Below are positions 15,117 through 43,970 of a DNA stretch of 43,970 nucleotides, in pieces; within the stretch, counting starts at the first letter, position 1; the number at the start of each line of letters is the position of its first letter. The position numbers and the translations under genes are program-made. Under the pieces are notes generated by a model. The model saw only the letters and a list, made by a program, of their open reading frames with translations. It made no database searches and had not been told where the DNA came from. Origin of the DNA: Thermodesulfobacteriota bacterium (GTDB lineage: Bacteria; Desulfobacterota_D; UBA1144; Nemesobacterales; CSP1-2); assembly GCA_036397855.1 (NCBI GenBank), contig DASWID010000045.1, forward strand, positions 1 to 43,970. Reading direction: 5' to 3'.

Positions 15117-15124
15117 TTTTATTC

Positions 15125-20856: not shown

Positions 20857-21549
20857 TCAGCCCCCCGAAGCCGACGCAGATTTGCGGTTAGACTCATTAA
20901 CGACACCTCTTTTCAAGTATTTAATATCCGATTGTTTCGTTAGTTCGGCTACTCGTATAGGAACAGAAATAAATCCATCACTAGACCTGACAAACGGTGC
21001 ATAAAGATCTTTTATTAATTTCTCAGCGGAAGGGTTATCCGTCCCAATCACTAACGTGTCTTGATTCATAAAATCCTCGATTGCAGATCCATCTTTGAGA
21101 AACACTGGGTTAGAGACAACATCAAACTCAACATCAGTAAAGGCTTTCATGATGTCACGAACCAATTCGGTAGTCCCCAAAGCAGATGTACTCGACGTAA
21201 TAATAATCTTGTAATCATCCAAACTTTTCCCTATCGATCTTGAAACTCTGAAAATTGGAGTTGTATCCAGACTACCATCGCCATCAACCGGTAGCCCTGT
21301 GGTCATAAAAACTACAAAAGAATCTTTAACAGCTTGATGAATATCATTAGTAAAAACCAGACGCCCCTCTTTGAAGTTTTTAATTATCAGGTCAACAAGA
21401 CCAGGTTCATGTAATGGTGACCTTCTGTCCCTAAGTCCTTTGTACTTTTCATGACCAATATCGACCAATTTTACGTTATTGCCAGTTTCTGCAAAGCATG
21501 TTCCTACAACAATACCGACAAAGTCTGTGCCAATTACGGATATGTTCAT
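20857..21549 (-). pseudogene. Truncated, frameshifted UDP-glucose/GDP-mannose 6-dehydrogenase
   Basis: The first 210 residues match the N-terminal NAD domain of UDP-glucose 6-dehydrogenase (normally about 430-450 residues, making UDP-glucuronate). The nucleotide-binding loop is altered (GTDFVG where GxGYVG is normal), and the NPVFLKDGS segment replaces NPEFLREG, losing the catalytic glutamate. After AELTK the alignment breaks. A +1 shift near 20890 restores a trace of the central helix (TANLRRLRGAE where IANLCExLGAD is expected), then homology ends. The substrate domain and catalytic cysteine are missing. It lies between two inverted repeat copies, which probably took part in the deletion. 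Non-functional in all likelihood. Confidence 0.75.
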
Positions 21550-24187: not shown

Positions 24188-24664
24188 CTAATGGCGACTC
24201 GACAAAGTATTAAAGTAGAAGTCAGACATTCGAAGAATAACTTTTGACATCAATTTTCTTTCGATCCAAACTTCAGATCTCGTTAAAGCCCGAACTGATT
24301 TTGCTAATTCTGTGGCGGATGCATTTTTACTAATATATCCTAAGCAACCTGCAAAGATGGCTCCCATGATTCTTTCCGGATCATATTTACTTGTTAGTAA
24401 TAGTACTTTCAGACGAGGAGATTTTTCCTTTATCAACTTCATGATTTCGAATATATCTAAGCTACTCATATCGGCATCAAGGATAAGGATATCCCCCGAA
24501 ATTGCACTATTTAGGATTTCTTTAATATCATTGGCTGATGATACCTGCGCTATTATTTCTAATTCTTTTTCAGAAGTTAAAAGTTTAATTATTGCTTCAC
24601 GCTCTAACGCATACTCACTGGCTACGATAATTTTGGAGTAACTTGGCAACAGACCGATCTTCAC
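24188..24664 (-). CDS. Stand-alone receiver-domain protein of the NarL/FixJ type (no HTH)
   Basis: 158 residues with one receiver domain and no LuxR helix-turn-helix. The phosphoacceptor candidate is D63 in ILILDADM, the switch threonine is in VLLLTSKYD, and the conserved lysine is in GYISKNA. The N-terminal acidic pair is reduced to ASEY. It is a paralogue of the three regulators at 25.0, 26.4 and 28.0 kb, which continue into a DNA-binding domain; this one ends after the linker helix (MSDFYFNTLSSRH), so it is either a truncated regulator or a single-domain phosphate sink/antagonist. It precedes glmS by 55 bases on the same strand. Confidence 0.7.
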   Translation of the reverse strand: MKIGLLPSYSKIIVASEYALEREAIIKLLTSEKELEIIAQVSSANDIKEILNSAISGDILILDADMSSLDIFEIMKLIKEKSPRLKVLLLTSKYDPERIMGAIFAGCLGYISKNASATELAKSVRALTRSEVWIERKLMSKVILRMSDFYFNTLSSRH

Positions 24665-24991
24665 CGGACATTAATTGATATTTCTGGATTTGTAATTTGA
24701 ATCTATTAAATATGGTTCGTTATAATTCACTAAGATGAGCGGAAAGAAATTTTTGACTTATCCACAAGAACTTCTTTTTACCCTCACTGATTATATGAAA
24801 CTATAAGAAGCGCCTATAGGATATTGAGGTTAAAGAGATTTAAAACTTCATAATATAAAGATGATAAAAAATTATAATTATCCAAATGGTTACCATATTC
24901 TGCTTGAGGAGATGCACTATCAAGTTCAAAATAATTTAATCCAGAACAATATTGCGCTATAATAATTGTTATACGAAATTATTCCTTTCAG
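24665..24991. other. Intergenic, no gene
   Basis: Very AT-rich spacer between two minus-strand regulators. No remnant of a LuxR HTH for the truncated receiver protein could be found here, and no RNA gene. It probably carries the promoter of the receiver-only gene. Confidence 0.4.
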
Positions 24992-25666
24992 TTAATTTGC
25001 TACAATACCCTTTCGATAACCATAAAGTATGAGCTCAGATCTGTTCTTGACAGCTAGCTTTCTAAAAATTTTATATAAGTGAAACTTTACTGTTTTTTCA
25101 CTTAAAAATACGTCTCTAGCGATTTGTTTATTGGAGTGACCTTCCAAAACCATTTTAAATATTTTTAGTTCAGTTTTAGTGAGATTGTATATAGGGGCGT
25201 TTGCCCTTTTCCCTCTACCATTAGGAGTATATGAGGAGGCTTCTAAAGCCTTAGTCATTATTTCCCTTTTTACCCAATGTTGTCCATCAGATACAAAATT
25301 GATTGCTGACTTAAGCTGATTTGAATTAGAATCCTTTGATAAATAACCTCTTACACCTAAAAGAATCGCATCTATGAGTTGATCCTCATCGAATTTGTCG
25401 CCAATTATTAATATCACTTTACAACCACTTTTATTCCTAATCGACTCCAGAATCTTTGAAAGTTTCAATCCTTGTAGGTCTGCATCAAGCAGCAATATGT
25501 CAAATTGAAACTCTTCGCAGAATTGAATCAGTTCTAATAAATTACACGCCTCAGCTACAACTTGTATACCTTCATCCTCATGTAGTATCTTAGATATTCC
25601 CTCTCTCAGTAGTGTATTTTCACACGCTACTAATGTTCTATTTAGGCGAGACATTTTATCCTTCAT
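24992..25666 (-). CDS. NarL/FixJ-family response regulator with atypical receiver
   Basis: 224 residues. Receiver domain (about 9-125) then a LuxR-type HTH (about 160-222) with LTKTELKIFKMVLEGHSNKQ and the recognition-helix region FLSEKTVKFHLYKIFRKL. Phosphoacceptor D61 (LLLDADL) and K111 (YLSKDS) are retained, but the acidic pair that binds Mg is reduced to ACEN (one Glu) and the switch Thr/Ser is replaced (VILIIGD). Phosphorylation is therefore doubtful. It shares long stretches with the regulators at 28.0 and 26.4 kb (e.g. REGISKIL), so the set arose by duplication. Monocistronic with large AT-rich flanks. Targets unknown; nearby sugar-nucleotide and antiterminator genes suggest surface polysaccharide control (inference). 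Confidence 0.85.
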   Translation of the reverse strand: MKDKMSRLNRTLVACENTLLREGISKILHEDEGIQVVAEACNLLELIQFCEEFQFDILLLDADLQGLKLSKILESIRNKSGCKVILIIGDKFDEDQLIDAILLGVRGYLSKDSNSNQLKSAINFVSDGQHWVKREIMTKALEASSYTPNGRGKRANAPIYNLTKTELKIFKMVLEGHSNKQIARDVFLSEKTVKFHLYKIFRKLAVKNRSELILYGYRKGIVAN

Positions 25667-26376
25667 TTTTAACGCGATAAAATTACAAATTGGATTAGAG
25701 ATTCATCCCAAATTAAATGATAAATAAATTGAATCGACACAAACAAAAGAACCAAGTTTTTTGAAAATCGCCAGAAGTGATTAATAATCTAAAGAATCAA
25801 GGCTACCGCGATCCACTTACATAAGTGATGTCCATTTGAATGTATGATGTTCTACTATTTATTTATCTCATTTTACGAGCCTGAGATCAATTGGACGACA
25901 GTTTAATTATTCGGTAATCATCAGTATTAGTATTAGGGTAAGTTAAGACTTAAGTTAGCAAGCACTTATTAGTCTTTTAGTTTTTCTTTGCTTAATAATT
26001 TAGATAAGTGGAAAAAGTTGAAGAGTTAATGGGGAAAATACATCCTCAAATTCTTATCAGGATTTATATACGGGTGCAGTAAGTTCGGTAGAAGTTTTGA
26101 TAGAGCTAGATATTAGTTTAGATTTTAGATAAGAGTTTATATTGGATCGGGTAATTCGATTTATGAGTGAAGTAAAGTTTCAGACCATAAAAAAAATGAT
26201 CTTGTGGGGTCTAGATTCTTTACCAGTCGAATAGAAGAATTCCTTAGATTTGAAAAAACAAATCCGGCCAACTTAAGGATGCCCACCAATCACATAAATT
26301 GTTTCAACTTTTTAGCATTTGAGATTTATTTATTGGATCACGGAGGATAACTAAAAATGGGGGGATATTCCGGATT
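25667..26376. other. 710-base AT-rich intergenic region, no gene
   Basis: Unusually long spacer between two paralogous regulators. I see no open frame with family character, no repeat copy of the types described above and no tRNA. There are local patterned motifs (for example agatattagtttagatttta near 26109) but nothing assignable. It may be a relic of a duplicated regulator or a regulatory landing region. Confidence 0.4.
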
Positions 26377-27069
26377 TTAATTCAACATTCCACTGCGAAA
26401 ACAATGAAGTATTAGCTGAGACCTGCTCTTTATCGAAAGTTTCTTGAAAACTTTATACAAATGAAATTTTACTGTCTTTTCACTGATATACATATGGCTA
26501 GCAATCGTTTTATTCGAATAACCACTCACAACCATTTTTACGATATTTAGCTCGGTATCAGTTAGATCATATAATGTGCCTGTTCGTGATCCCCTTCTGT
26601 TTTTGCGACGATATAAGAAAGCATCAAACACCTTACCGGCGATCTTTCTTTCTATCCAAAATTGTCCTTCACTTACGGCATCAATGGCTTCCTTGAGTTG
26701 TTTTGAATTTGAATCCCTTAATAAATAACCTCTTAACCCCAAAGATATAGCATCTACCAGTTCATCCTCATCGTACTGTCTGTCGATGAACAATAGTACC
26801 TTTCCTCTATTTTTCTTCTTTACCATCTTCAGAATCCTTTTAAGATTTAAGCCTTCTAGATTCACAGAAATCAACAATATGTCAAATAAATATTCTTGAC
26901 AGCCTCGAATCACTTCTAAAGCATTAGAAAGCTCGGAAACAATTTCAATGTCTTTATCCTCTTTCAGTATCTTCGCTATTCCGTCCCTAAATAACCTATT
27001 ATTTGAGGCTAAAATTATGTTGGTTTTTTTATTCTTTGCCGAAATACGAGTTTTATCTGGTTCTATCAT
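26377..27069 (-). CDS. NarL/FixJ-family regulator with pseudo-receiver domain
   Basis: 230 residues: receiver-like domain (about 16-130) and LuxR HTH (about 165-228; LTDTELNIVKMVVSGYSNKT and YISEKTVKFHLYKVFKKL). The receiver has lost its chemistry: the acidic pair is ASNN, the phosphoacceptor position is serine (S68 in ILLISVN), the switch residue is F94 and the conserved lysine is R118 (YLLRDS). It cannot be phosphorylated in the normal way and probably acts by concentration, ligand or partner binding. It starts 31 bases after the antiterminator gene stop, so both are probably in one transcript. Paralogue of the neighbouring regulators. Confidence 0.85.
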   Translation of the reverse strand: MIEPDKTRISAKNKKTNIILASNNRLFRDGIAKILKEDKDIEIVSELSNALEVIRGCQEYLFDILLISVNLEGLNLKRILKMVKKKNRGKVLLFIDRQYDEDELVDAISLGLRGYLLRDSNSKQLKEAIDAVSEGQFWIERKIAGKVFDAFLYRRKNRRGSRTGTLYDLTDTELNIVKMVVSGYSNKTIASHMYISEKTVKFHLYKVFKKLSIKSRSQLILHCFRSGMLN

Positions 27070-27100
27070 AATATATCACCAATAATTCTCATGAAAAATT

Positions 27101-27613
27101 CTAAAGCAACTCAATGTCATGTACATGAACTTCAACGCTTACAGACCTTTTAATCAGATCAACAGATAATACTACAATATGTTTCGATGGCCTTTTTTCT
27201 ATAATTTTCCCTACGACGCCTGCGAGAGGACCATTCTTTATTTCGGCCTCTGCTCCGATATTAACATAGGGGTAAGGATCATATTTGAGATCGCTTTTAA
27301 CGAGCTTCTCAATGGATTCAATTTGCTCATTAGGAATTGGGTAAGGCACTCCATTTATGCCAACCATTCTTAATACGCCCTTTGAATAGATAACATTATG
27401 TATATCTTTTTGAAGTATATTTACGAAAACGTAAGAGGGGAAAAGAGGTACGGTAATTAACTTTTTACGATCTTTCCACCTGGATAAAACGCTTCTTAAA
27501 GGTAAAAAGGTTACAACACCCCTGCTCACGAGAAATTTGCTCGTTAACTTCTCGTGACGACTTTTAGTATAAACTGCATACCAATTCGGATTTTCCTTAC
27601 TCAAATCAATCAC
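27101..27613 (-). CDS. NusG-like (UpxY/RfaH-type) transcription antiterminator
   Basis: Specialised NusG paralogue expected to load on RNA polymerase and promote read-through of long surface-polysaccharide operons. The NGN domain starts NPNWYAVYTKSRHEK and continues through FLPLRSVLSRWKDRKK and PLFPSYVFVNI; the KOW-like C-terminal part has VNIGAEAEIKNGPLAGVVGK. I chose GTG 27613 (171 residues, the family's usual size) because ggaag lies 8 bases upstream. The frame is open back to an ATG at 27682 and a TTG at 27733, but these put the G10 tract (27629-27638) inside the coding sequence. Downstream and probably co-transcribed is the pseudo-receiver regulator. No polysaccharide operon follows directly, so its target is elsewhere. 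Confidence 0.8.
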   Translation of the reverse strand: MIDLSKENPNWYAVYTKSRHEKLTSKFLVSRGVVTFLPLRSVLSRWKDRKKLITVPLFPSYVFVNILQKDIHNVIYSKGVLRMVGINGVPYPIPNEQIESIEKLVKSDLKYDPYPYVNIGAEAEIKNGPLAGVVGKIIEKRPSKHIVVLSVDLIKRSVSVEVHVHDIELL

Positions 27614-27628
27614 CCCATCATCTTCCAG

Positions 27629-27638
27629 CCCCCCCCCC
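27629..27638 (-). repeat. G10 homopolymer tract at the 5' end of the antiterminator gene
   Basis: Ten consecutive G on the minus strand, located between the predicted -10 box and the ribosome-binding site if translation starts at GTG 27613, or within codons 31-35 if it starts at TTG 27733. Tracts this long slip readily and are the classic substrate of phase variation. Confidence 0.85.
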
Positions 27639-27652
27639 ACCTTAGGCAATAC

Positions 27653-27681
27653 ATTATAATATAACTTCGTTATCAAAGTCA
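27653..27681 (-). promoter_or_regulatory. Possible promoter of the antiterminator gene
   Basis: A perfect TATAAT at 27658-27653 (minus sense), with a weak -35 candidate TGACTT at 27681-27676 after a 17-base spacer. Initiation about 7 bases further would start near 27646, just before the G10 tract. Confidence 0.35.
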
Positions 27682-27754
27682 TACACCGTATTCTGGGACG
27701 TAAAATGTAACCGAAAGAGTATTGGTTGTGCAATGTAAAAAAGTAACCAAAATA

Positions 27755-27800
27755 GAAAGTAAGATAGGTAAGAAGGTAAGTTTCACACTATCTTACTTTC
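27755..27800. repeat. 13-bp perfect inverted repeat between regulator genes
   Basis: gaaagtaagatag (27755-27767) is repeated inverted as ctatcttactttc (27788-27800), with a 20-base loop containing further gtaag units. It lies between the regulator ending at 27958 and the antiterminator gene, both minus strand. Downstream in minus sense the DNA is T-rich, so it could be a terminator hairpin or an operator. Confidence 0.6.
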
Positions 27801-27957
27801 ATTATGGATATGCACTCAAAAAACCAATATCTTAAGAAGGTACACTCACTTAACAAATTTAAATTTATCTCTAAAATCTAATGGCATTTTAGAACTATTA
27901 CACATTTATCAGATCAATAACACTGAATAAGTTTTTGTAAAATTGGTTGTGCGACAA

Positions 27958-28662
27958 TTAGCTATTTTGTTTATTAACGATTCCTTCGCGAAAACAATAA
28001 AGTATTAGTTCAGACCTACTCTTTACAGAAACTTTCTTAAAAATCTTACTCAAGTGAAACTTTACTGTCATTTCACTTAAATACAATTCTTTAGCGATAA
28101 GCTTATTCGAATAACCATCTAAAACCTTCTTAACGATTTTTATCTCAGCTTCAGTGAGATTATATAAAGGACCATCACCTTTCTTCCTTTTATGATTATG
28201 AGTAGATAACAAGGCGTCTAAGACCCTATACATCATTTTCCTTTCTACCCAAAGTTGTCCATCATTTACACCACTGATTGCTTGTTTAAGTTGTATTGAA
28301 TTAGCATCCATTACTATATAACCCCTTACACCCGAAAGAATTGCATTTATGAGTTCATACTGATCAAATTTGTCGGGAATGATTAATATTACTTTCCCAC
28401 TATTCTTATTCTTAACTAACCGCAGGATCTTCGAAAGTTTTAAACCCTGTAACTCTACATCAAGCAGCAATATGTCAAAGTCGAATTCTTCACAGGATTG
28501 AATCAGTTCTAATAAATTAGAAGCCTCAGCCAATATGTGGAGGGTTTCATCCTCATCTAATATCTTGGATATTCCCTCTCGCAATAATCTATTGTTAAAG
28601 GCTAATATCAAATTTATTGAATGAATCTTTGACGGTGAAATATTTGTAATCCCCTGATTCAT
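27958..28662 (-). CDS. NarL/FixJ-family regulator with atypical receiver
   Basis: 234 residues: receiver-like domain (about 16-130) and LuxR HTH (about 168-230; LTEAEIKIVKKVLDGYSNKL and YLSEMTVKFHLSKIFKKV). D68 is kept (ILLLDVEL), but the acidic pocket is AFNN and the conserved lysine is replaced by methionine (M118, YIVMDA), while the switch position reads LIIPD. It is close to the regulator at 25.0 kb (shared ISKIL, ASNLLELIQSCEEF and LQGLKLSKIL-type segments). Upstream is a long region with a dead IS element. Probably active as a DNA-binding protein without canonical phosphorylation (inference). Confidence 0.85.
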   Translation of the reverse strand: MNQGITNISPSKIHSINLILAFNNRLLREGISKILDEDETLHILAEASNLLELIQSCEEFDFDILLLDVELQGLKLSKILRLVKNKNSGKVILIIPDKFDQYELINAILSGVRGYIVMDANSIQLKQAISGVNDGQLWVERKMMYRVLDALLSTHNHKRKKGDGPLYNLTEAEIKIVKKVLDGYSNKLIAKELYLSEMTVKFHLSKIFKKVSVKSRSELILYCFREGIVNKQNS

Positions 28663-29618: not shown

Positions 29619-32552
29619 ATGAAGAAGTGTAACTTAAAAGGAAAAGAAAAGTTTATAATGGAAAAACGTAATTTAATGAAAGACAGGGAAGTTTTAGAAT
29701 CGGACAAGTTCGTTGATATTCCTGAGGAAAAGATGCTTAAAAAAAATAAGAGAAAACAGATATTACATACTAAGAAGATTGCTTTTCACAATAAAGGAAG
29801 TAAACCTAAAAACATAATAGGCATTTCAGAAGATAATAGCAGACTAAAGAAGGTAGAGGAAAAGCTAACTCAAACTCAAAGTCGTCTGACACTATTTAAC
29901 ACTATAATTAAAACTATCACCTCAGGTACGTCAGTTAATCAAGTTGTCAAACTAACAGTTAATAAAACTAGTGAGTATTTCAAAGATCTTCGCGTATCTT
30001 ATTCAACGATTAGAGAGAACGGCAATATGAAAGTGATTTATTCTAGAGAGACACAAGGAATGTCAATCTTGAACGGTTTAGAGTGCGACCTCTTAATGAC
30101 CCCAGATTATTTAGGCTCCTTGCGGAGGCGCGAACCAGTCATCATTGAAGATAGTACTGTTGACCAGAGGTTAGCGCCATTCGCCAAAATACTGTCGGCT
30201 TTTGGCAGTCGGGCATTACTTGGTGCGGCCGTCGCAGATTCCAAAAAAATAACAGGTTTGCTATGTCTTCACTCTAGGGAAGCTCACCAATGGAGCAATC
30301 ACGAGAAAAAAACCATAAAAGACGTAGCCCATTACTTGAGTATTGCCATTAATCATGCACATACGGAAATAAGAAATAAAGAAAACGAAAAGAAAATTAA
30401 GAAAAATCTAGAGGAATTATCCAAAAAAAGTAAATATCAATCTATTATAAGTAGAACAACTCGCAGTGTCCACCAGTCAATTGATCTTCAAGAAGTTATG
30501 GAACATGCTGTAGAGTCAATACGCGAAAATATAGATCTAGTAGACGCAATCGCGATTTATCTAGTTGAGGGTGAGGAGGCAGTTCTGAAATCCCATAGGG
30601 GTCTAACTGATCGATATATAAAGCTGGCAGGGAGAATTCCTTATCCTAAAGGTTTTACCTGGAAGACTATAATTGACCGCAAACCTAGGTATTGTCCAGA
30701 TGTGGACCAGGATGCAATTATCGGCCCAGCCGGAAGGCGAATGGGAATAAAGAGTTATTTGGCCATGCCTTTCAGCCACGAAGACAAAACCTCAGGGATT
30801 ATGGGCATAAATTCCTTTCAGAAGAATTCCTTTGGCGAAGAAGAGTTAAGGCTACTGGAAATGGTCGCACGGCAAATAGAGATAGCAATTAATAATGCCA
30901 AGCAGGCAGAAGCAATTCAGGAAAGTAAAGAAAAGTATCGAGCACTTATTGAGCAGTCAAATGATTGGGTATGGGAAGTCGATATAAACGGCTCCTTCAC
31001 ATACGTAAATCCAAAAGTGCGTGAAATAATTGGTTATGAACCAGAAGAATTGCTTGGTAAAACGACATTTGATTTTATGTCTACAGATGAGGCAAAACGA
31101 TTTTATGATTTATTAAGCCCCTATTTTTCAGAGAAAAGACCATTTAAGCGTCTTGAAAAAAAGCTGATGCATAAGGACGGGCATGAAGTTATTCTAGAAG
31201 TTAGTGGGACACCGATGTTTGACAGTCAAGGATTTTTCAAAGGTTATCTAGGAGTAGTGGAGGATGTTACTCAACGCAGGAATCAGGAGAAGAAAATACA
31301 CCATTTTGCCATGCATGATTACATGACCGACCTTCCCAATCGCCGTTCACTTGAAGAGGAACTAACTAGAATAACGAACCAAAATAGCGCCAAACAAAAG
31401 GGCGCATTGCTGATGATAGACTTGGATAACTTTAAACTGATAAACGATACTCTAGGTCATTTTGCTGGAGACCAGCTTTTGAAAGATCTGTCCAATGCTT
31501 TAGCAAAAATTATGCGCCCTAGAGATATGCTGGCAAGAATGGGTGGTGATGAGTTTGTTGTAGTACTCCAAAATGTTTCTCCGAAAGAGGCTAAGAAAAT
31601 AGTTGATAGGTTATTCAAATCAATAAACGAGTTCCAATTTAATATTAAAGGTTATAATTTGAATCTTAACTGCAGTATAGGCATTACCCTCATAGACGGC
31701 GAATCAAGCATCGAAGAAATTTTGCAAAAGGCTTATTCGGCTCTTTCCCAAGCCAAGTCCGAGGGGAAAAACCGGATAATCCGTTACGGTACAGGTGAAA
31801 CTATCATCAAAACTAAGCAGGCCAGCAATTGGAAAATCCGTATCAAAGAAGCACTTAAATTAGATCGATATACAATAGAATTTCAACCTGTGGTACGGCT
31901 TGATACTGAGAAGACGGAGTTTTTCGAGGCATTGATCAGGATGAAAGCTGACAACGGTCAAATTGTATTTGCAAAATCGTTTATTCATTTTGCTGAACGC
32001 TTTGGCTTAATATCAGAAATTGATCGGTGGATGGTGGAGAAAATAACGCATTTTTTAGCTAGCCACCCGAGCACGAAGCTTTCCATAAACCTTTCAGGAT
32101 CAAGCCTAAGAGATAAGTCTCTTCTTTCTTCAATCGAAAGATATATCCAGGAAGGTCGAATTTCTGCTGATCAATTGGTTTTCGAAATCACCGAACTTTC
32201 CGCAATTAGAGACTTATATAGCGTCCAAAAATGGCTCAATAAATTGCAGATCTTAAATTCCCGATTTGCCCTGGATGACTTTGGCAGCGGATTCTCATCA
32301 TTTAAGCACTTGCAGACTCTTCCAGTTGATTTTGTCAAAATTGATGCTTCCTTTATCTCCAAAATTAAAAATGACCTATCATGCTATGCGATTGTAGACA
32401 GCATAGCTTCTGTAGCACATGCTCTTGGAAAAGAAGTTATAGCCGAGGGGGTAGAAAATCGAGAAATTATAAAAAGCCTACGGGAGTTTAAAATAGAATA
32501 TGGGCAAGGAAAATTCTGGAAGTCAGAGAATCTGCGTTCTCTAAATTCATAA
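29619..32552 (+). CDS. GAF-GAF-PAS-GGDEF-EAL c-di-GMP turnover protein
   Basis: 977 residues, cytosolic, with no membrane segment. Two GAF domains (about 85-245 and 265-430) and a PAS domain (about 435-555; EVDINGSFTYVNPKVREIIG) precede a diguanylate cyclase domain (about 565-725) and an EAL phosphodiesterase domain (about 735-970). The GGDEF motif is intact at 642-646, and an RxxD product-inhibition site is present (R633, D636), five residues before it. The EAL motif is intact at 770-772 with DDFGSGFSSF (886-895) and EGVEN. Both activities are possible, so it may switch direction with GAF/PAS ligand. Start uncertain: ATG 29619 or ATG 29658, the latter preceded by a purine-rich stretch. It converges with the histidine-kinase operon. 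Confidence 0.92.
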   Translation: MKKCNLKGKEKFIMEKRNLMKDREVLESDKFVDIPEEKMLKKNKRKQILHTKKIAFHNKGSKPKNIIGISEDNSRLKKVEEKLTQTQSRLTLFNTIIKTITSGTSVNQVVKLTVNKTSEYFKDLRVSYSTIRENGNMKVIYSRETQGMSILNGLECDLLMTPDYLGSLRRREPVIIEDSTVDQRLAPFAKILSAFGSRALLGAAVADSKKITGLLCLHSREAHQWSNHEKKTIKDVAHYLSIAINHAHTEIRNKENEKKIKKNLEELSKKSKYQSIISRTTRSVHQSIDLQEVMEHAVESIRENIDLVDAIAIYLVEGEEAVLKSHRGLTDRYIKLAGRIPYPKGFTWKTIIDRKPRYCPDVDQDAIIGPAGRRMGIKSYLAMPFSHEDKTSGIMGINSFQKNSFGEEELRLLEMVARQIEIAINNAKQAEAIQESKEKYRALIEQSNDWVWEVDINGSFTYVNPKVREIIGYEPEELLGKTTFDFMSTDEAKRFYDLLSPYFSEKRPFKRLEKKLMHKDGHEVILEVSGTPMFDSQGFFKGYLGVVEDVTQRRNQEKKIHHFAMHDYMTDLPNRRSLEEELTRITNQNSAKQKGALLMIDLDNFKLINDTLGHFAGDQLLKDLSNALAKIMRPRDMLARMGGDEFVVVLQNVSPKEAKKIVDRLFKSINEFQFNIKGYNLNLNCSIGITLIDGESSIEEILQKAYSALSQAKSEGKNRIIRYGTGETIIKTKQASNWKIRIKEALKLDRYTIEFQPVVRLDTEKTEFFEALIRMKADNGQIVFAKSFIHFAERFGLISEIDRWMVEKITHFLASHPSTKLSINLSGSSLRDKSLLSSIERYIQEGRISADQLVFEITELSAIRDLYSVQKWLNKLQILNSRFALDDFGSGFSSFKHLQTLPVDFVKIDASFISKIKNDLSCYAIVDSIASVAHALGKEVIAEGVENREIIKSLREFKIEYGQGKFWKSENLRSLNS

Positions 32553-32760: not shown

Positions 32761-34653
32761 TCAGCCCCCAAAAACTTGTGATACAATACTTGTGATTTCA
32801 TTGATCTTAAAGGGCTTCTTTATAAACGAATATGCTCCTTCTGCTATTAACTTTTCTATATTCTCTTCTTCTCGCGTACCACTGATAACTACTATAACAG
32901 AACTGGGATCAAAGATCTTCATCTCTCTTAAGAGTTCAATGGCACTCTTTCCATTGATTGTCAAGTCTAAAAAAATAATATCATAGTGATTCTTCCTGAT
33001 TAGTTCAATCACAACATCAGCGCTATTGGCGGTATCAACGCTATGACCGGAGGTTACCAATGCTTCCTTTATAAGATTACAAATAAATTCTTCATCATCC
33101 ACAACAAGAATATTCCCTTTCCTCCTCGTTTTTCCGCCGGTATCGAAATTTGCTTGATCTGACGGATTCATTTCATCAGAGATTCGTTGAATATTCGGAA
33201 GCCTAATACTAAATGTTGTCCCCTTTCCAATCTCACTGCTTACTTCGATTGTTCCTACATGCCTCCCGATTATCGAATAAACCACAGAAAGACCAAGGCC
33301 TGTCCCGGACTTTGAATCATCGCTTTTCTTTGTCGTAAAAAAGGGCTCAAATATTTTCTGTAGATTTTTCTGAGGAATGCCAATCCCATTATCTGAGAAT
33401 TCTATCCTTACATAGTCACCATCAATATCAGTTTTTATCGCTATCGCCCCGCCTTCACTCATTGCATCCCTCGAGTTGAGCGCCATGTTGATGATCACCT
33501 GTTGTACTTCCCCCACGTTCATAACAATAGGAGGAACCTTTCCATAATGACGTATTATTTGTATACCATCCGATTTAAAAGTATGTTCGATTAGTTTGAT
33601 TGCATCTTCGATCACCTCCTCTAAACATGCAAGCTGCTTTTTGTTATCCCTATTTTTAGAAAAAGATAACAAAGTCGTTACAAGGTCTGACGCTCTCGCT
33701 GCAGCCTTTTCCACAACCTTTAAGTCCTCTCTTATACTCTCAATACTTGTCCTTGAAAAGGCAAAGCTTGTGTAACCAATGATCCCAGAAAGAATATTAT
33801 TAAACTCATGGGCGAGACCCGTTGCAAACTGACCTACTGCGGACATCTTGGCAGATTGAATCACTTGGGCCTCTAATTTCTTTTTTTCAGTTATGTCTTC
33901 GGTCACTACTGTCAGACCAAACTTCTCACCCGTCTCAGAATCAACCAAAGGTGAAAGAACGATCTCTAAGTATTTATCATCAAACTTTACAATATGATTT
34001 GTGCTGTATGAATCGTAATGAAGTATCTGAGGAATAACAGTCTTGAAATTGATTCCCTCGATGAGATTGTCTAGTCTCGAACCAATACAATCCTTCCCAA
34101 AAATCTTTAAAGTCTGGGTATTCGCGCTTTTTATTACCAGGTCCATATCGGTTGTCATTACACTCTCATGAGTGCTGAACAAAATATTGTTGAGCTCTCG
34201 AGTTCTATCCCTGATTTTAAGCTCAAGATTGGCATTAATGTGTTGGAGTTCTTGCATTAGACGCCTATTTTCCTGCATTAGTTCATATTTTTCAACAGCA
34301 TGCTTTATGATGCTTTTCAGTTTATTAAAGTCCAAAGGCTTGGATAAATAATCAAATGCACCATGCTTTACAGCCTCTACAGCCGTTTCTAGGGAGGCAT
34401 ACCCCGTCATGATGATAACAGGTATGTCTGGATTAAAGGTACGAATTCTATCAAGGAGATTTATGCCATTCTTCTCAGGCATGCGGATATCTGTAAGAAC
34501 GACATGAAAGAGATCTCCTTTCAGGAGATTGAGGGCTCTATCACAGTTCAAAGCGGTAATTACTTCATAACCTTCGTTTGAGAAGATATCAGAAATGATT
34601 TGTAAAATTAATTGTTCGTCATCAACCACTAAAAGTTTTCTTTTCCCCTTCAC
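32761..34653 (-). CDS. Hybrid signalling protein REC-PAS-HisKA-HATPase-REC
   Basis: 630 residues, cytosolic. An N-terminal receiver (D55 in VVLTDIRMP, K106 in YLSKP) is followed by a coiled coil (about 120-155), a PAS domain (about 155-255), a histidine kinase core with H282 (GLAHEFNNILSGIIGY), N box NMALNSRDAM and G boxes DNGIGIP / GTGLGLSV, and a C-terminal receiver with D563 (IIFLDLTI). It starts at GTG 34653 with AGGA about 8 bases upstream and overlaps the 3' end of the preceding histidine kinase by 32 bases, so the two are translationally coupled. A likely phosphorelay is membrane kinase to N-terminal REC, autokinase, then C-terminal REC. No DNA-binding output, so output is by protein contact or a separate regulator. 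Confidence 0.9.
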   Translation of the reverse strand: MKGKRKLLVVDDEQLILQIISDIFSNEGYEVITALNCDRALNLLKGDLFHVVLTDIRMPEKNGINLLDRIRTFNPDIPVIIMTGYASLETAVEAVKHGAFDYLSKPLDFNKLKSIIKHAVEKYELMQENRRLMQELQHINANLELKIRDRTRELNNILFSTHESVMTTDMDLVIKSANTQTLKIFGKDCIGSRLDNLIEGINFKTVIPQILHYDSYSTNHIVKFDDKYLEIVLSPLVDSETGEKFGLTVVTEDITEKKKLEAQVIQSAKMSAVGQFATGLAHEFNNILSGIIGYTSFAFSRTSIESIREDLKVVEKAAARASDLVTTLLSFSKNRDNKKQLACLEEVIEDAIKLIEHTFKSDGIQIIRHYGKVPPIVMNVGEVQQVIINMALNSRDAMSEGGAIAIKTDIDGDYVRIEFSDNGIGIPQKNLQKIFEPFFTTKKSDDSKSGTGLGLSVVYSIIGRHVGTIEVSSEIGKGTTFSIRLPNIQRISDEMNPSDQANFDTGGKTRRKGNILVVDDEEFICNLIKEALVTSGHSVDTANSADVVIELIRKNHYDIIFLDLTINGKSAIELLREMKIFDPSSVIVVISGTREEENIEKLIAEGAYSFIKKPFKINEITSIVSQVFGG

Positions 34654-37156
34654 TATCTTTTCCTGAAATCTCCTGAATTATTGGCAGTTCTATTATGAAG
34701 TTCGTTCCCCTCTCGGTATCACTGTATATTATAATGTTCCCATTGTGAGCTTCAATTATTTTATAGCTAACTGAGAGACCAAGCCCGGACCCTGTGTCTT
34801 TTGTCGTAAAGAAGGGGTCGAAAATCTTGGGGAGGTCTTCTTTTTTGATGCCAGGCCCATTATCTTCGAAACTTATAAATACATTATTTGGGCTTTCTTT
34901 TTGAAACCCTGTATTAATCCTGAGTTCACCGCCACAGGGCATTGCTTGAATAGAATTCATTATTACATTAATGAATACATGCCATATGTTATTTAGATCA
35001 GCCATGATTTTGGGAATCCGGTAATCTAGATTTTTAATGACCTCGATCTTATTATCAACAATCTGTTTTCTGGTTAAAGTCAAAACATCATCGATTAAGC
35101 TGTTAACATCAACAAGTCCAAAATTCGTTGATCCGGGCTTTGAAAACGCAAGCAAGCTATCTATCAATCTGTTTGTACGATCAACCTCGTGCTTAATGTA
35201 ATCAAGGTACTGTCGAATTAACGGAGATTCTTCTCGGTTCAAATTTTGTGATAAATAATATCTTGCACCTTCTATGATATTTAAAGGGTTTCGTATTTCA
35301 TGCGCAATTCCTGCTGCAAGTTGTCCTACAGCAGACATCTTCTCCGCCTGGATAAGCTGCGCTTGCGTTTCTCGAAGCTCTCTATTTTTTTCTTCTAACT
35401 TGTTTACGTAATCCTCAACCAATTTAAAAGCAAATGCGTTTTCAATAGCAATTGCAGTCTGGTTTGCCAGTGTCTTCAGTAGCTTCAAATCATAGCTTGT
35501 GTACATCAGTCCAGATTTCTTCTCTCCCAATGAAACAACACCTACCAACTCGTCCTTGAAGAAAAGCGGAATAATCAGTGAAGCTCTCAAAACAGAGAAG
35601 GTTTTTTTCAATTTTTCGCCATATATATAATATTTCTCTTCCGCAATCAAATCTTCTTTAAACATTTCTTTCTTTGAGCTATTTAATAAGAGGATTAACT
35701 TGTTATCGCTCTCGATGCTTAAACCATTTTTCTCCAAATCATCAATCGTCGTAGAATGAATCCTGTAACCATTTGTGCTTCGATCAAAAAGTAGAAGAGA
35801 GGCTGAGTTGATGAACATGGTTTCTGTAATAGTTTTAATAATTTTATTGGCTATTTCGTCAATATTAAGAATTGATGTCATGGCGTCGCTAAGATCAGAG
35901 ATTGTTTTATTGTAGTCATACCTTTTTCTAAAGAAAGCATTATCTAAAATGCTCTGAATTCGATTTCTGAGCGGATTAAGTGCTAACACAAGAAAGGCAC
36001 TTAAGATTAAAAAGAAAGCGGGATTTTTCCAACCGCCATGTTCAGCAAAAGCTATATTGAAACCAAGAACCATAAGAGCAAAAATTCCTACCACCAACCC
36101 TGTTAGGGAACCATAGACTAGTGTCTTTTGAATAATTACATCTATATCGAAGAGTTTATGCTTTGCGATAGCATAGCCTATTGAAAGAGGGAAAAATAAA
36201 ACGAGTATAGCTATGTAGTTAATATTACTAGCTCCATAAAAAACAACTGTCAAAGCAGCTACAGCAGGAAGAAAATAACCTAATACTGCACCTATCAACA
36301 CCACTTGGGCCCTTTGTTTATTTAACTCAGAATCAGGTCTTAAATAACTTACTGTTACAGAAGCCAGCATTGTTAGCGCCGCGAAAATTAAGTAAAACCA
36401 CATCACTGTATCTACCGTTTTCCACATACCAGGGTTATGAAGATAGATCAGTTGTAAAATGAATAATACGGATGAAAATAAAAAAGGAAGCAATATTATA
36501 CGTGGATACTTTTTAAATAATATCTTCTCATTAGGAAAAACTAAAGATAGATAAATCAAAAAAGACGGGCTAAAAATCTGAGCTAGATAGGACACATTTA
36601 CTGAATATATGAGTGAATAGTTGGTCTGATAATCAAAGTCTTCTATAAACCAAATCCCGATTGAAGAACAAAGCATTAAGAAGACCTTACTAGAAAGTAA
36701 ATTCGGTTTTAAAAGATAAACTAAAGCTCCTATTGTTAGAAAAATCAAACCAGTGACAAATTCTATTCCAAATACCTGCAAATAATCGCTAACGGTAAAT
36801 TTCATGGAAGGAAACGCGGCTTCGATAAAATTATTATCTCTTGAGAGTAGATAAGTTATAGGAGTACCTATGGGCTTCGCCGCGACGATATCATAAACCT
36901 CGTACGATCTTGATACTTCTCTTCCATCTACCTTAATAATTTGATCGTAAGATTTCAATCCAGATTTTCCACGCTCCGACCAACTAGGAAGGGTAACCTG
37001 ACTAACCAATAAGTTATTATAAATTAAAAAACCGGGGAAAGGTCTCCCCATCGATCTAAGTCCCTGAATTAGGCTATTTAAACTTAGAACAAGGGACAAG
37101 CCAATTATTATATACGCTATAACTTTAAATTTATCTTTATAAAATAAATAACTCAT
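34622..37156 (-). CDS. Membrane sensor histidine kinase with PDZ-like, multi-TM and GAF domains
   Basis: 844 residues. TM1 (about 13-32) leads to a PDZ-like extracytoplasmic segment (about 35-115; SGLKSYDQIIKVDGREV). About eight to nine helices follow (125-400), then a GAF domain (about 415-575), a coiled coil, and a kinase core with H619 in GIAHEIRNPLNIIEGA, N box NVIMNSIQAM, DNGPGI and GSGLGLSV. A large hydrophobic sensor region fits detection of a membrane-soluble or envelope signal. Its ATG overlaps the stop of the upstream reductase gene as ATGA, and its 3' end overlaps the hybrid kinase. Reductase, kinase and hybrid thus form one tightly coupled operon, which is an unusual metabolic-signalling link. 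Confidence 0.9.
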   Translation of the reverse strand: MSYLFYKDKFKVIAYIIIGLSLVLSLNSLIQGLRSMGRPFPGFLIYNNLLVSQVTLPSWSERGKSGLKSYDQIIKVDGREVSRSYEVYDIVAAKPIGTPITYLLSRDNNFIEAAFPSMKFTVSDYLQVFGIEFVTGLIFLTIGALVYLLKPNLLSSKVFLMLCSSIGIWFIEDFDYQTNYSLIYSVNVSYLAQIFSPSFLIYLSLVFPNEKILFKKYPRIILLPFLFSSVLFILQLIYLHNPGMWKTVDTVMWFYLIFAALTMLASVTVSYLRPDSELNKQRAQVVLIGAVLGYFLPAVAALTVVFYGASNINYIAILVLFFPLSIGYAIAKHKLFDIDVIIQKTLVYGSLTGLVVGIFALMVLGFNIAFAEHGGWKNPAFFLILSAFLVLALNPLRNRIQSILDNAFFRKRYDYNKTISDLSDAMTSILNIDEIANKIIKTITETMFINSASLLLFDRSTNGYRIHSTTIDDLEKNGLSIESDNKLILLLNSSKKEMFKEDLIAEEKYYIYGEKLKKTFSVLRASLIIPLFFKDELVGVVSLGEKKSGLMYTSYDLKLLKTLANQTAIAIENAFAFKLVEDYVNKLEEKNRELRETQAQLIQAEKMSAVGQLAAGIAHEIRNPLNIIEGARYYLSQNLNREESPLIRQYLDYIKHEVDRTNRLIDSLLAFSKPGSTNFGLVDVNSLIDDVLTLTRKQIVDNKIEVIKNLDYRIPKIMADLNNIWHVFINVIMNSIQAMPCGGELRINTGFQKESPNNVFISFEDNGPGIKKEDLPKIFDPFFTTKDTGSGLGLSVSYKIIEAHNGNIIIYSDTERGTNFIIELPIIQEISGKDSEGEKKTFSG

Positions 37157-38172
37157 TTTAATTCGAGAAGAGCATTAATCCCCCCGATATCATCGACCCA
37201 AAGTTTCAATTGTCTGAGTCCATCATCTATGCTAACTTTAGGCCGGTAATTTAATTCTCTGATTGCCTTTTCAACGCTATAATTTAAATTTCGACCCATC
37301 AGAGCAACAGCATATCTCGTCAAAGCAGGTGGATTTCTCGACTTTAATAACATCGCCCAAACTTCCATTACGGAGGCTAGTCCATAAGCAAAGAAATAGG
37401 GAAGGGATCTTACAGGTGACCATTTTATACCTAGACAGGAAAGAAGGCGCGAAATAAATTCCGAAAAGGTAATTTTGATATCATCATTTATAAAGAAAAC
37501 TTCTCCTCGAGCATCCTTGGTCTCACTCGCTAATATTATAGCATCGGTTAAGTTCTCGATATAACACAAAGAAATTAGATTATTTCCATCACCTATTAAG
37601 AATAGATCTCCGCAGATCGCTAATCGTAAAATTCTTGGAAGAATCACTTTGTCGCGGGGTCCCCATACTATGCACGGACGTATGATGACCGTCTCTAGCC
37701 TTCCTTCATGATTATATTTCAAGGCTAATTGTTCTGAAATGGCCTTTGTCTCACAGTAGGGATGCTTATATTTTTTGGGATAAGGATAACGTTCATCTAT
37801 CTCAATATGATTATCAAATTTCCAAACAACATCATTGCTACTTATAAAGACAACTCGTTGTACACCGCTTTCTTCACATGCCTTAAGCACGTTCCTCGTT
37901 CCCTCAACATTTACTCTATAGAATTCTTCTTTGCTTCCCCAGTCTCTGACCAAAGCCGCACAGTGAAATGCTAAGTCAACTCCCTTACTAATTTCTAAAA
38001 GAGAGTCGAAATCCAATAAATCCCCGTAATGAAGTTCTACTCCCAAACTCTCGAGCCTTTCAACGTCGCTAGTTTTCCTGACCAAGCATTTAACATAATC
38101 CCCCCTTGCTGCCAGCTTGCCTGCTAGATTTTCGCCTACAAACCCAGTCCCCCCAGTTAACATTACTTTCAT
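37153..38172 (-). CDS. NAD(P)-dependent extended SDR, 3-beta-HSD / epimerase-dehydratase type
   Basis: 339 residues. Rossmann motif GGTGFVGENLAGKLAARG (7-24), NAG-like AFHCAALVRDWGS, active-site S in VVFISSND and Y-x-x-x-K in YCETKAISEQ. VIIRPCIVWGPRD and the C-terminal LTRYAVALMGRNLNYSVEKA pattern place it near 3-beta-hydroxysteroid dehydrogenase-like reductases (OleD type) rather than sugar epimerases. Such enzymes reduce 2-alkyl-3-keto acids, and I recall that a ceramide-reductase of bacterial sphingolipid synthesis is also annotated as an epimerase/dehydratase. It is first in the operon with two kinases. Its natural partner may be the PilZ-oxoamine synthase upstream, whose product would carry a keto group (inference). 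Substrate unknown. Confidence 0.8.
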   Translation of the reverse strand: MKVMLTGGTGFVGENLAGKLAARGDYVKCLVRKTSDVERLESLGVELHYGDLLDFDSLLEISKGVDLAFHCAALVRDWGSKEEFYRVNVEGTRNVLKACEESGVQRVVFISSNDVVWKFDNHIEIDERYPYPKKYKHPYCETKAISEQLALKYNHEGRLETVIIRPCIVWGPRDKVILPRILRLAICGDLFLIGDGNNLISLCYIENLTDAIILASETKDARGEVFFINDDIKITFSEFISRLLSCLGIKWSPVRSLPYFFAYGLASVMEVWAMLLKSRNPPALTRYAVALMGRNLNYSVEKAIRELNYRPKVSIDDGLRQLKLWVDDIGGINALLELK

Positions 38173-38410
38173 TTCTGCATAGTCTTAAAACTTTGCGCTA
38201 GGCCTTACATCCTGAAAATTCGCATCCTTTTTTTTTGAGGATCAAACTCCCTTTTAAATTTTTTTTTAAAACCCCTAGTATCATATCTAAACCATATTTA
38301 ACGTAGCAAAGGTAGGAAAATAGCGAAAATTCCAACAGCCATATACGGAAACATCGTAAGAAATTCCATTATTACCATTGGCTTAGTTTTCTAATGAATT
38401 ATTATGCTTG
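38173..38410. other. Leader/intergenic region of the reductase-kinase operon, no gene
   Basis: AT-rich DNA with T8-T10 runs (38226-38275) between the structured leader and the reductase start (minus strand). No open frame. The long T/A runs may include a terminator-like region in minus sense or a slow-transcription zone following the putative riboswitch. Confidence 0.4.
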
Positions 38411-38530
38411 TTATTTCGGCAACCCGATTAACCTAGATTATTTGATCCCTGAGGTGTTGGGAATTGGTCCCCCATCCTTTCGACTGACTACCCGTTTCGG
38501 TAGTAGAACATGTACCTGAAAAACTATTGT
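38411..38530 (-). ncRNA. Structured leader, possible divergent c-di-GMP-I (GEMM-like) riboswitch
   Basis: In minus sense it contains CTACC-gaaacg-GGTAG, then GTC-agtcgaaaggatgggg-GAC with a cgaaag loop, TCCC-...-GGGA, and a 3' block atcgggttgccgaa. The order (GAAA-loop helix, GGGAC-like stretch, ATCC-like helix, GGGTTGCCGA at the 3' side) resembles c-di-GMP-I riboswitches. The canonical GCAAAGCC core is not present, so the assignment is uncertain. It lies in the leader of the reductase-kinase operon, next to a PilZ gene. Confidence 0.35.
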
Positions 38531-38688
38531 TTAAAGACTAAATAATAATTCAATTTTTTGTGAATTAAATAAGACAAGCTGGACTTATACAGAATCCTTT
38601 TAACTATTAATTGTTCTACAGAAACATCCATAAACTTATGAATAAACCTAAAATATTTCTTCAAAAAGACGGTAAAAAATATTCTTAT

Positions 38689-40323
38689 TCATGCAGCAAA
38701 TGATGAAAAACGACAATGATCCAAATCTAGAATATTGAATTCTCTTCCAACTTTTTCTAAAACCTCTAGAGTCTTATCCAAATCTTGTTTAGTATGGGTC
38801 GCCATAATGCTTAATCTGAAACGTTCTTCTCCTTTTGGCACAGCGGGATAAGGAACAGCGTTTAAAAAAATCCCTTCCTCATATATCCTTTTACTCATTT
38901 TTCTGAGCGTCAAACTATCTCCAATAATGATTGGAATTATAGCCGATTCGGTGTTTCCAACATTAAAGCCGATGGATTGAAGATTTCCTTTCATATATTT
39001 TATATTTCTCCATAAGTGATCATGCATTTCTGTCTCATTCTCCATAACTTCAATCGCTGCTAGTGCCGCTGCTGCTACAGCCGGCGGCAGGTTAATGGAG
39101 AAAAATCCTGATCTTGCATAGTACCTCAAGTAATTTACAACTTCACTTGAAGAAGCAACAAAGCCACCTAAGGCGCCTAAAGCTTTACTCAAAGTGCCCA
39201 TAACTATATCTACTTTACCCTCTATTTTAAAATGACTGGGGGTACCTTTACCTCTCTCTCCTATGACTCCGGTTGCATGAGCCTCATCAACCATGACTTT
39301 TGCACCGTACTGGTGAGCAACTTCAGTTATTTGGTCAAGAGGCGCAATATCACCATCCATACTGTATACACCATCAACTACTACTAATATACCGTTGTAT
39401 TTCTTCTCTGTTCTTTCCAAGACATCCTTCAGACTATCAATATTGGAATGTTTAAAACTTCTGAAAAAACCACCACTAAGCATACAACCATCTATAATGC
39501 TCGCATGTGCAAGCCTATCTATAATTACTGCGTCTCCTTTCTTTACTAAAGCAGATATGCACCCTACGTTAGTTGCATATCCTGTGGGAAAGACTGCCGC
39601 GTCCTCACAGCCTTTCATCCGGGCTAATCTAATTTCCAGTTCTCTATGTATATCATATGTCCCTGAAAGAAGTGCAGCACCCTCCGAGCCTGTTCCGTAT
39701 ACCCTGGTTGATTCTAAAGCAGCTTTTACTACTTTTGGATGTGTTGAAAGACCCAGATAGTTGCAACTTCCCATCATGACCATTTCTCTTACTTCACCAA
39801 AGTTTTTATCAAAGACCTCAACTCTATTTTTACAAGCTGTTATGAGAGGTATTCTATATTTATCAAAGCCTTTCTGGATAATATCTTCCATAAATTGGCT
39901 GAATGGTTTAGTCTTGTAAAATAAGTCTTTGTCTGAATTATCAACAAAATCTGCTAACGAGAGGTTATCAGAATTTATTTTTGTAGAACATTCCTCTATG
40001 GATTCCTGTAATCTCCTCTTATCTGCTTCAAACATAGTCTTAAATTCCACTCCCATCCCCAAATGGTCACCTAATCTTACTTTCTGGGCTTCTTTAATCC
40101 ATTTAATCTCGCTATATGCTTTTAGGGCTGTAACATCTTTGGGAAACCTAAATTCAAGAAGTATTTTTGTTCCAGGCTGTAGTAGTTGTTTGGATTCAAC
40201 AAACATTCCATAGGGGGAAATATCCCTTGCATGTCCAATTAATTGGCCATTGGTTCTTGACACAACTTTAATGTCCGAAAATGTGGTTCTCGAGCACCTC
40301 CTGCGTTCTAAACTCAATGTCAT
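38689..40323 (-). CDS. PilZ domain fused to PLP-dependent alpha-oxoamine synthase (AONS/KBL/SPT fold)
   Basis: 544 residues. The PilZ domain (about 1-112) has both c-di-GMP-binding motifs: RxxxR (R8, R12) and DxSxxG (D34-S36-G39). The C-terminal domain (about 150-530) is a fold-type I PLP enzyme of the alpha-oxoamine synthase family (8-amino-7-oxononanoate synthase, 2-amino-3-ketobutyrate CoA ligase, serine palmitoyltransferase, CqsA/LqsA). Visible are GSCNYLGLSTHP, the stacking H273 in LAHASIIDG, D346 and H349 in VDEAHATGVIG, and PLP lysine K380 in GTLSKALGALGG. Such enzymes condense an amino acid with an acyl-CoA. c-di-GMP should gate activity directly (inference). The next operon encodes a 3-beta-HSD-type reductase. 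Substrate unknown. Confidence 0.9.
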   Translation of the reverse strand: MTLSLERRRCSRTTFSDIKVVSRTNGQLIGHARDISPYGMFVESKQLLQPGTKILLEFRFPKDVTALKAYSEIKWIKEAQKVRLGDHLGMGVEFKTMFEADKRRLQESIEECSTKINSDNLSLADFVDNSDKDLFYKTKPFSQFMEDIIQKGFDKYRIPLITACKNRVEVFDKNFGEVREMVMMGSCNYLGLSTHPKVVKAALESTRVYGTGSEGAALLSGTYDIHRELEIRLARMKGCEDAAVFPTGYATNVGCISALVKKGDAVIIDRLAHASIIDGCMLSGGFFRSFKHSNIDSLKDVLERTEKKYNGILVVVDGVYSMDGDIAPLDQITEVAHQYGAKVMVDEAHATGVIGERGKGTPSHFKIEGKVDIVMGTLSKALGALGGFVASSSEVVNYLRYYARSGFFSINLPPAVAAAALAAIEVMENETEMHDHLWRNIKYMKGNLQSIGFNVGNTESAIIPIIIGDSLTLRKMSKRIYEEGIFLNAVPYPAVPKGEERFRLSIMATHTKQDLDKTLEVLEKVGREFNILDLDHCRFSSFAA

Positions 40324-40615
40324 TTTAGATATCCCCTCTTACCTTTATATTCTCAAACATAATAAAAATGGATTTTGAAAGTCATTACTATCGCATCTAA
40401 GAACTCCAAATAATTTCGCCTGCTACACCTTCCTACAACACTCTGTCATAAAAGACAAAGGTTTTAAATTAAGAAGCTTAGAAAATCCGTTTTAATTATA
40501 ACTTTCTTTTAACTATCGGAAAAGTAATAATTTAAACTTGTAGGGATATTAAACAAATAAAAAAAACACATTATTTATATTAATGACAAAAAGTTACATT
40601 TTACATTATATAAGA

Positions 40616-42870: not shown

Positions 42871-43970
42871 TTATGAATTGGTAAGGTTAAACAAAAGATT
42901 TTTAAGATAATTCGAGCCGGCTCGTTCAATATTAGTTCGAGCCGTTGTCCATACCTCATCGGGGATATTGATGAAAATATTGATTATCTCTGGATCAAAT
43001 TGCCTGCCAGAAGATTGCTTTATCAAATCTATCGCCTCTTCGTGCGAAATTGCCTGGCGATAAGAACGACTGGTAGTCATAGCATCAAATGTATCAACAA
43101 CTGAAAATATTCTAGCGCCTAATGAAATTCCCTTCCCGGATATTTTGTCGGGATAACCGGTTCCATCAAAATTTTCATGATGACTCAAGACAATTTCAGC
43201 CGCTTGCTCCAAAAACTTTAATCTTTTTAGAAGATTATAACCGTAAACAGGATGTTTCCTCATTATCTCCATTTCATCGTCCGTGAGCTTTTCGGGCTTT
43301 AAAAGAATATGGTCTGGAACTCCTATTTTACCGATATCATGGAGGAGAGCGCCCTTGGCTATACTTTCCAAATCCGAATACGGTACGCCAAAATTCTTAG
43401 CGAGGATTATCGTATATTCAGTCACTCGATACGAATGGCGGCCGGTTTCACATTCTCTCATATCGAGAGCGGAAATCATTGCTTCAAGTGTATCCGCATA
43501 AACACTAATTAACTGATTTGCCTGTGTTATCACCTTTCTCTCAAGATTTTCCTGATAATCCTTGATATCGTTAATCAGCCTCGATCTCTCAACCGCACGA
43601 TTTATTACCGACTTTACACTACTACTATTAAAAGGCTTGACAATATAATCATATGCCCCTTCCTTAAGTGCCAACCTTGCGTATTCGAATTCTTTCGATG
43701 CTGTTACAATTATTATCGAAATATCGGGATAGAGTTTTTTAAGTCTCCTCAGTGTCTCAATTCCACTGAGTTTTGGCATATGAATGTCCAAAAGAACTAT
43801 GTCGTAAAAGTCTCCATCTCTAAACTTTTCTAGACACTCAATTCCATTCGACACACTTTCACTTGCAAAACCCTCCTCCGCTGCAATTTCCTTCAGCAAA
43901 TCTGCTAAGACCTTTTCATCATCAACTATAAGTATTTTCTCTCTATTCTTATTTTTTTCGTTTGTATGAT
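42871..43970 (-). CDS. REC-HD-GYP response regulator, c-di-GMP phosphodiesterase (RpfG-like), 5' partial
   Basis: The frame is open through the right window edge, so the start is outside; the first visible TTG at 43899 is not the start because the upstream codons encode KILIVDDEKVLADLL, the beginning of the receiver with its acidic pair. The phosphoacceptor Asp lies in DIVLLDIHMP and the lysine in YDYIVKPFN. A coiled linker leads to the HD-GYP domain with HDIGKIGVPDHILLKP and the HHENFDGTGYPD signature, plus SLGARIFSVVDTFDAMTT. This class hydrolyses c-di-GMP to GMP (or pGpG) on phosphorylation. Terminator at 42801-42826 ends the transcript. Completes the set of c-di-GMP synthesis, degradation and effector domains in this region. 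Confidence 0.93.
   Translation of the reverse strand, partial: HTNEKNKNREKILIVDDEKVLADLLKEIAAEEGFASESVSNGIECLEKFRDGDFYDIVLLDIHMPKLSGIETLRRLKKLYPDISIIIVTASKEFEYARLALKEGAYDYIVKPFNSSSVKSVINRAVERSRLINDIKDYQENLERKVITQANQLISVYADTLEAMISALDMRECETGRHSYRVTEYTIILAKNFGVPYSDLESIAKGALLHDIGKIGVPDHILLKPEKLTDDEMEIMRKHPVYGYNLLKRLKFLEQAAEIVLSHHENFDGTGYPDKISGKGISLGARIFSVVDTFDAMTTSRSYRQAISHEEAIDLIKQSSGRQFDPEIINIFINIPDEVWTTARTNIERAGSNYLKNLLFNLTNS

Follow-up and report, generated by a model that had tools for sequence, protein, structure and literature searches.

A PilZ domain fused to an alpha-oxoamine synthase in Dadabacteria: a candidate c-di-GMP-controlled enzyme of lipid metabolism

Effectors of c-di-GMP are known mainly from exopolysaccharide synthesis, motility, secretion and transcription. 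The outputs of PilZ proteins of the BcsA and YcgR type are polysaccharide synthesis or motility, and not the formation of a C-C bond by a PLP enzyme. The stretch of DNA analysed here (the window, 43,970 nucleotides), which belongs to Dadabacteria, encodes a protein that joins a PilZ domain to an alpha-oxoamine synthase (AONS). This raises the question of whether c-di-GMP could directly control such an enzyme and, if so, what the enzyme makes.

Domain layout and distribution of the fusion

The original prediction of a PilZ domain fused to an AONS at 38689-40323 was borne out. Both Pfam domains lie above cut-off in one chain (PF07238, 41.6 bits against a cut-off of 22.5; Aminotran_1_2, PF00155, residues 180-522, 199 bits against 19.7) and the reading frame runs along the minus strand; the plus strand across the same interval contains many stops (Table 1). 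Each residue of the complete c-di-GMP motifs (R8-x3-R12 and D34-x-S36-xx-G39), a pattern (RxxxR and (D/N)xSxxG) shared with BcsA, YcgR and other PilZ effectors, was at the position claimed for it, as was each of the catalytic residues H273, D346, H349 and K380. The AONS domain is a fold type I PLP enzyme with a complete His, Asp, His, Lys active site. A profile built from the PilZ part of the fusions gave weak matches to solved PilZ proteins, including YpfA (5vx6), and a PDB search with the single-sequence PilZ part returned spurious matches only. The AlphaFold model of the fusion protein has a mean pLDDT of 88 and a pTM of 0.76. The solved structures nearest to it are serine palmitoyltransferases (SPT), namely those of Sphingobacterium multivorum (3a2b/8guh; 40% identity, TM 0.96 of the target for 8guh) and Sphingomonas paucimobilis (2jg2; 34%, 0.95), which share the AONS fold and the full catalytic set.

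Table 1. Positions of the fusion gene, its parts and its neighbours in the window.
Feature	Coordinates	Strand	Basis or remark
PilZ-AONS fusion gene, 544 aa	38689..40323	-	ATG 40323, stop (TGA) 38689
Likely ribosome-binding site GAGGGG	40333..40338	-	Sequence, upstream of the fusion ATG
PilZ domain, residues 6-110	39994..40308	-	PF07238 and weak profile match to solved PilZ proteins
RxxxR c-di-GMP motif, R8-R12	40288..40302	-	Unchanged in 14 fusions
(D/N)xSxxG c-di-GMP motif, D34-G39	40207..40224	-	S36 and G39 invariant; 34 always D or N
Linker / N-terminal extension, residues 113-178, 'NSDxxxLADF...DLFxK'	39790..39987	-	Also on stand-alone AONS of other phyla
AONS domain, residues 179-533	38725..39789	-	PF00155, AlphaFold model, SPT fold match
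H273, stacks on PLP	39505..39507	-	
D346, PLP nitrogen	39286..39288	-	
H349	39277..39279	-	
K380, Schiff-base lysine	39184..39186	-	
Extended SDR ketoreductase, 3-beta-HSD/OleD-like, GGTGFVG and YxxxK present	37153..38172	-	
Membrane histidine kinase, PDZ, GAF, HisKA, HATPase	34622..37156	-	
Receiver - histidine kinase - receiver hybrid	32761..34653	-	
GGDEF-EAL protein, intact GGDEF motif, c-di-GMP turnover	29619..32552	+	GGDEF domain detected; EAL read from sequence
HD-GYP-type response regulator, continuing past the window end	42871..43968	-	PF13487

Searching other genomes for the fusion had been proposed as a check, and the complete PilZ-linker-AONS frame was found in at least 14 Dadabacteria species (independent assemblies, with the window counted); one further copy is cut by a contig end. 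These copies occur in several Dadabacteria families, some of them on contigs longer than 500 kb, and the named matches to the linker patterns are Bacterium HR37 and Candidatus Dadabacteria MAGs. Outside Dadabacteria, a scan of 84,980 species with two linker patterns, which a PilZ-AONS with a different linker could escape, returned only stand-alone AONS without PilZ. In Dadabacteria isolate nzgw197 (L033:7974-9623, the same as L016:8900-10552) a CAT (His) codon replaces that of the Schiff-base lysine ('GTLSHALGG'), and this copy is possibly a pseudoenzyme or an assembly error.

The original prediction also knew of no PilZ fusion to this enzyme class, and we met no report of one: searches of the open literature turned up nothing relevant that links PilZ to AONS, SPT, sphingolipid or ceramide. 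Myxococcus xanthus PixB (PilZ-PilZ-GNAT) is likewise a PilZ fusion to an acyltransferase-fold enzyme but, unlike the protein described here, it has no AONS, works in motility and development, and lacks the Ser in its second PilZ motif (PMC8316039).

Conservation of the PilZ motif and co-occurrence with GGDEF proteins

Pairwise identity of the PilZ domain among 14 aligned fusions falls to 21%, with a median of 36%. Nevertheless, R8, R12, S36 and G39 are invariant and position 34 is D or N in all 14, so that homologues without the motif residues, named beforehand as refuting the idea, were not seen in this set. Only 7 of the 109 PilZ positions are invariant, and the enrichment of motif residues among them has a hypergeometric P of 3e-5. 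The putative c-di-GMP motif of the fusion is shown by this alignment to be under selection.

Of 58 Dadabacteria genomes, 28 encode GGDEF proteins; all 15 genomes with the fusion belong to these 28, and none of the 30 GGDEF-less genomes carries it (P = 1e-6, with kinship ignored). Because most of the genomes without GGDEF come from clades with small genomes, this co-occurrence is consistent with a link and is not proof of one. No PilZ protein besides the fusion was found in the window genome, which has three GGDEF proteins, one of them within the window. Direct c-di-GMP control of the AONS, by putative binding and gating, is a good hypothesis because a full PilZ motif and an AONS active site stand in one chain that is conserved over much of the phylum and occurs only in genomes with diguanylate cyclases.

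Family of the AONS domain and a third domain in relatives

The AONS domain scored under the cut-off of every NCBIfam AONS model. This applies to the SPT models (NF047600, 388.8 of 640; NF047599, 350 of 500; NF047603, 290 of 670) and to the BioF (389 of 426), KBL (384 of 460) and ALAS (281.9 of 338.6) models; the CqsA/LqsA score (211 of the 428 bits required) is far under those for SPT, BioF and KBL. FastTree phylogenies place the Dadabacteria fusions in a single group (support 0.91-0.94), nested within a clade of stand-alone AONS sharing an 'NSDxYTLADF...DLFxK' extension. These stand-alone proteins come from Neomarinimicrobiota, Spirochaetes, Atribacteria, Desantisbacteria, Omnitrophota, Verrucomicrobia, Deltaproteobacteria and Leptospiraceae. 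The clade is separate from SPT, BioF, KBL, ALAS and PigH, and the SPT-containing clade (support 0.985) leaves out the window AONS. Model cut-offs and tree together reject strict SPT membership and identity with KBL, ALAS or CqsA/LqsA, and identity with BioF is rejected by these and by a true BioF that adjoins BioA elsewhere in the window genome. Unlike bacterial Spt, the fusion has PilZ and a linker in front of the enzyme, and most members of its AONS group lack 'GSR' before the 'LNGT' loop. The AONS belongs to an uncharacterised clade.

Evidence about the product comes from the relatives. In over half of them (L015, L017-L023, L025 and the contig-cut L030) the reading frame continues for about 370 residues into a third domain, a GNAT by Pfam. 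In L015 this domain is homologous over its full length to E. coli YghO (24.7% over 367 aa, 1e-29), and there is also full-length homology (27%, 1e-46) between the third domain and a stand-alone GNAT whose gene comes immediately after that of a Bacteroidota-type SPT in genome G058. The yghO gene (ECD_02850) is listed as the counterpart of Caulobacter CC_1154, which is needed for dihydroceramide (PMC9386255). In E. coli and Rahnella, relatives of the third domain are encoded within spt-acp-SDR-acyl-AMP ligase/yghO clusters; those of Streptomyces, Rubrobacter, Aureispira and G058 adjoin AONS and SDR genes. Since members of the YghO/CC_1154 family elsewhere adjoin AONS and SDR genes, the fused ceramide-synthase (CerS) family domain points to a sphingolipid-like product. 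The domain is absent from the window copy and from L014, L016, L024, L026 and L027, and a genome search found no homologue in those six genomes. A FemAB-like protein occurs in 12 of 14 fusion genomes; it is also present where the GNAT is fused and is apparently unlinked, and it is therefore uninformative as a candidate for the missing acyltransferase.

The arrangement resembles the ceramide genes of Caulobacter and E. coli (spt, acpR, aasR, cerR and cerS, the last being CC_1154 or yghO) in having an AONS, a YghO-family N-acyltransferase (fused in relatives) and an SDR nearby. It differs in that relatives carry PilZ, AONS and CerS on a single chain, CerS is missing from the window copy, no acpR or aasR was seen beside the fusion, and the SDR is of the OleD type. 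Caulobacter Spt and bCerS are both cytoplasmic, and the proposal is that they work one after the other, ahead of CerR in the periplasm (PMC11087976); a fused Spt-CerS chain fits this order. Of the products suggested in the original prediction, the sphingoid base was strengthened by the CerS-family domain, whereas a biotin-like intermediate is unlikely because of the separate BioF beside BioA, and a CqsA/LqsA-type signal matched its model poorly.

We give about an even chance to the reading that the fusion is a c-di-GMP-controlled AONS of lipid metabolism, a sphingolipid-like synthase. By this reading c-di-GMP would bind PilZ at R8/R12 and D34/S36/G39, and the bound PilZ would shift relative to the AONS dimer or the acyl entrance and so switch activity. 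The AONS would catalyse the condensation of an amino acid, most likely serine, and a long-chain acyl thioester to a 2-amino-3-oxo lipid. In the relatives, the attached YghO/CerS-family N-acyltransferase would then acylate the amine to an oxidised-ceramide-like lipid; in the window organism, where this domain is missing, the adjoining SDR may reduce the ketone instead. Points against this reading are the scores below the SPT cut-offs, the position outside the SPT clade, the lack of a CerS domain in the window copy and of any CerS homologue found in its genome, no acyl carrier protein or acyl-ACP synthetase seen nearby, an SDR that is not a dedicated partner, and the His in place of the Schiff-base lysine in the nzgw197 copy. 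More tentatively, and with a less than even chance, a single Dadabacteria polypeptide may unite c-di-GMP sensor, oxoamine synthase and N-acyltransferase and yield a ceramide-like lipid, so that c-di-GMP would allosterically set membrane lipid composition.

Gene neighbourhood and alternative readings

The SDR gene lies between the fusion and two kinase genes in the window, and its end overlaps the start of the first kinase by 4 bases. It is possibly the reductase of an aminoketone. The same genome has a 50% paralogue of this OleD-like SDR, in a neighbourhood that is uninformative, and relatives have copies too; as one copy of a widespread type, the gene is unsupported as a dedicated CerR. The gap at 38173-38688 yielded no small ACP gene, and neither an acyl carrier protein nor an acyl-ACP synthetase dedicated to the pathway was seen near the fusion. 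The kinase pair (membrane histidine kinase and hybrid) comes after the fusion in all Dadabacteria loci reaching that far, and in relatives the kinase genes often overlap or abut its end. At six loci in other phyla (L042, L043, L044, L046, L047 and L048) the gene after a stand-alone AONS of the fusion clade encodes a FemAB-like acyltransferase (assigned by PF04339 at the two loci scanned and by similarity at the rest), with a histidine kinase too in five of the six. AONS of this clade are thus repeatedly paired with an N-acyltransferase-fold protein and a kinase, and AONS, FemAB-like protein and kinase form an unrecognised module in several phyla, possibly for lipid synthesis with a sensor.

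Other parts of the window hold four similar response-regulator genes on the minus strand (24188-28662; at 24188, 24992, 26377 and 27958, the first shorter), which apparently arose by duplication and then diverged; a NusG/RfaH-like gene lies among them (27101-27733). There is also a shortened UDP-glucose dehydrogenase-like ORF of 230 aa whose C-terminal part seems to be missing (20857-21549), a REP-associated (Y1) transposase-like ORF between nadA-like and gamma-glutamyltransferase-like genes (14499-15128) and, at the window edge, a GNAT gene like the TacT-type toxins of toxin-antitoxin pairs (279-809).

The two kinases after the fusion, and those near stand-alone AONS of the same clade, would also suit a signal synthase that makes a diffusible aminoketone or hydroxyketone (CqsA- or LqsA-like) sensed by the neighbouring kinases, with PilZ coupling c-di-GMP to the signal. 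We consider this unlikely, since the CqsA/LqsA model score is about half its cut-off, the CerS-family domain fused in relatives is a better fit to a membrane lipid, and the neighbouring kinases have no recognised autoinducer sensor.

A second alternative concerns the PilZ domain. Many PilZ domains work via partners, and this one might bind c-di-GMP merely to place the enzyme at a membrane or a partner protein, or might have no effect on catalysis, leaving the AONS constitutive. In M. xanthus PixB, motif substitutions left the enzyme-dependent reversal function unaffected (PMC8316039). The invariance of the motif residues at high divergence and the strict co-occurrence with GGDEF argue that ligand binding matters, but not how it acts. 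We regard a PilZ that does not gate the enzyme as quite unlikely.

It is very unlikely that the AONS acts in secondary metabolism with acyl-ACP and serine, as PigH, the prodigiosin AONS, would. Among plasmid matches, the best annotated ones are PigH proteins of prodigiosin-type clusters, with 41-43% identity that includes part of the linker and with a related N-extension; PigH has carrier-protein domains where the fusion has PilZ. However, PigH stands apart from the Dadabacteria clade in the tree and no polyketide, ACP or pyrrole genes were seen near the fusion, and tree and gene context together reject orthology. Plasmid clusters with such PigH-like AONS were seen in Methylocystis, Pseudoalteromonas and Thioclava (L086:5161-7290, L083:7680-9596 and L085:5674-7311). 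Finally, although the source assembly is fragmented (195 contigs), an assembly or reading-frame artefact has practically no chance of being the explanation, since the same frame and domain order across independent assemblies of several families, on contigs of up to more than 500 kb, rule out chance, frameshift and chimera.

Returning to the more tentative reading of a ceramide-like lipid made by one polypeptide, this would, if true, be the first case in which c-di-GMP directly controls synthesis of the sphingolipid type, exerted on an oxoamine synthase of an uncharacterised family. The data also indicate that this unstudied family exists in several phyla, and the PilZ-AONS-CerS chain supports, independently of Caulobacter, the consecutive cytoplasmic action of Spt and CerS ahead of reduction. 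In a sphingolipid-like pathway, a PilZ domain at the committed and irreversible step would place membrane lipid composition among the direct outputs of c-di-GMP. In the little-studied Dadabacteria, a biofilm-type signal may thus directly switch the synthesis of an unusual membrane lipid.
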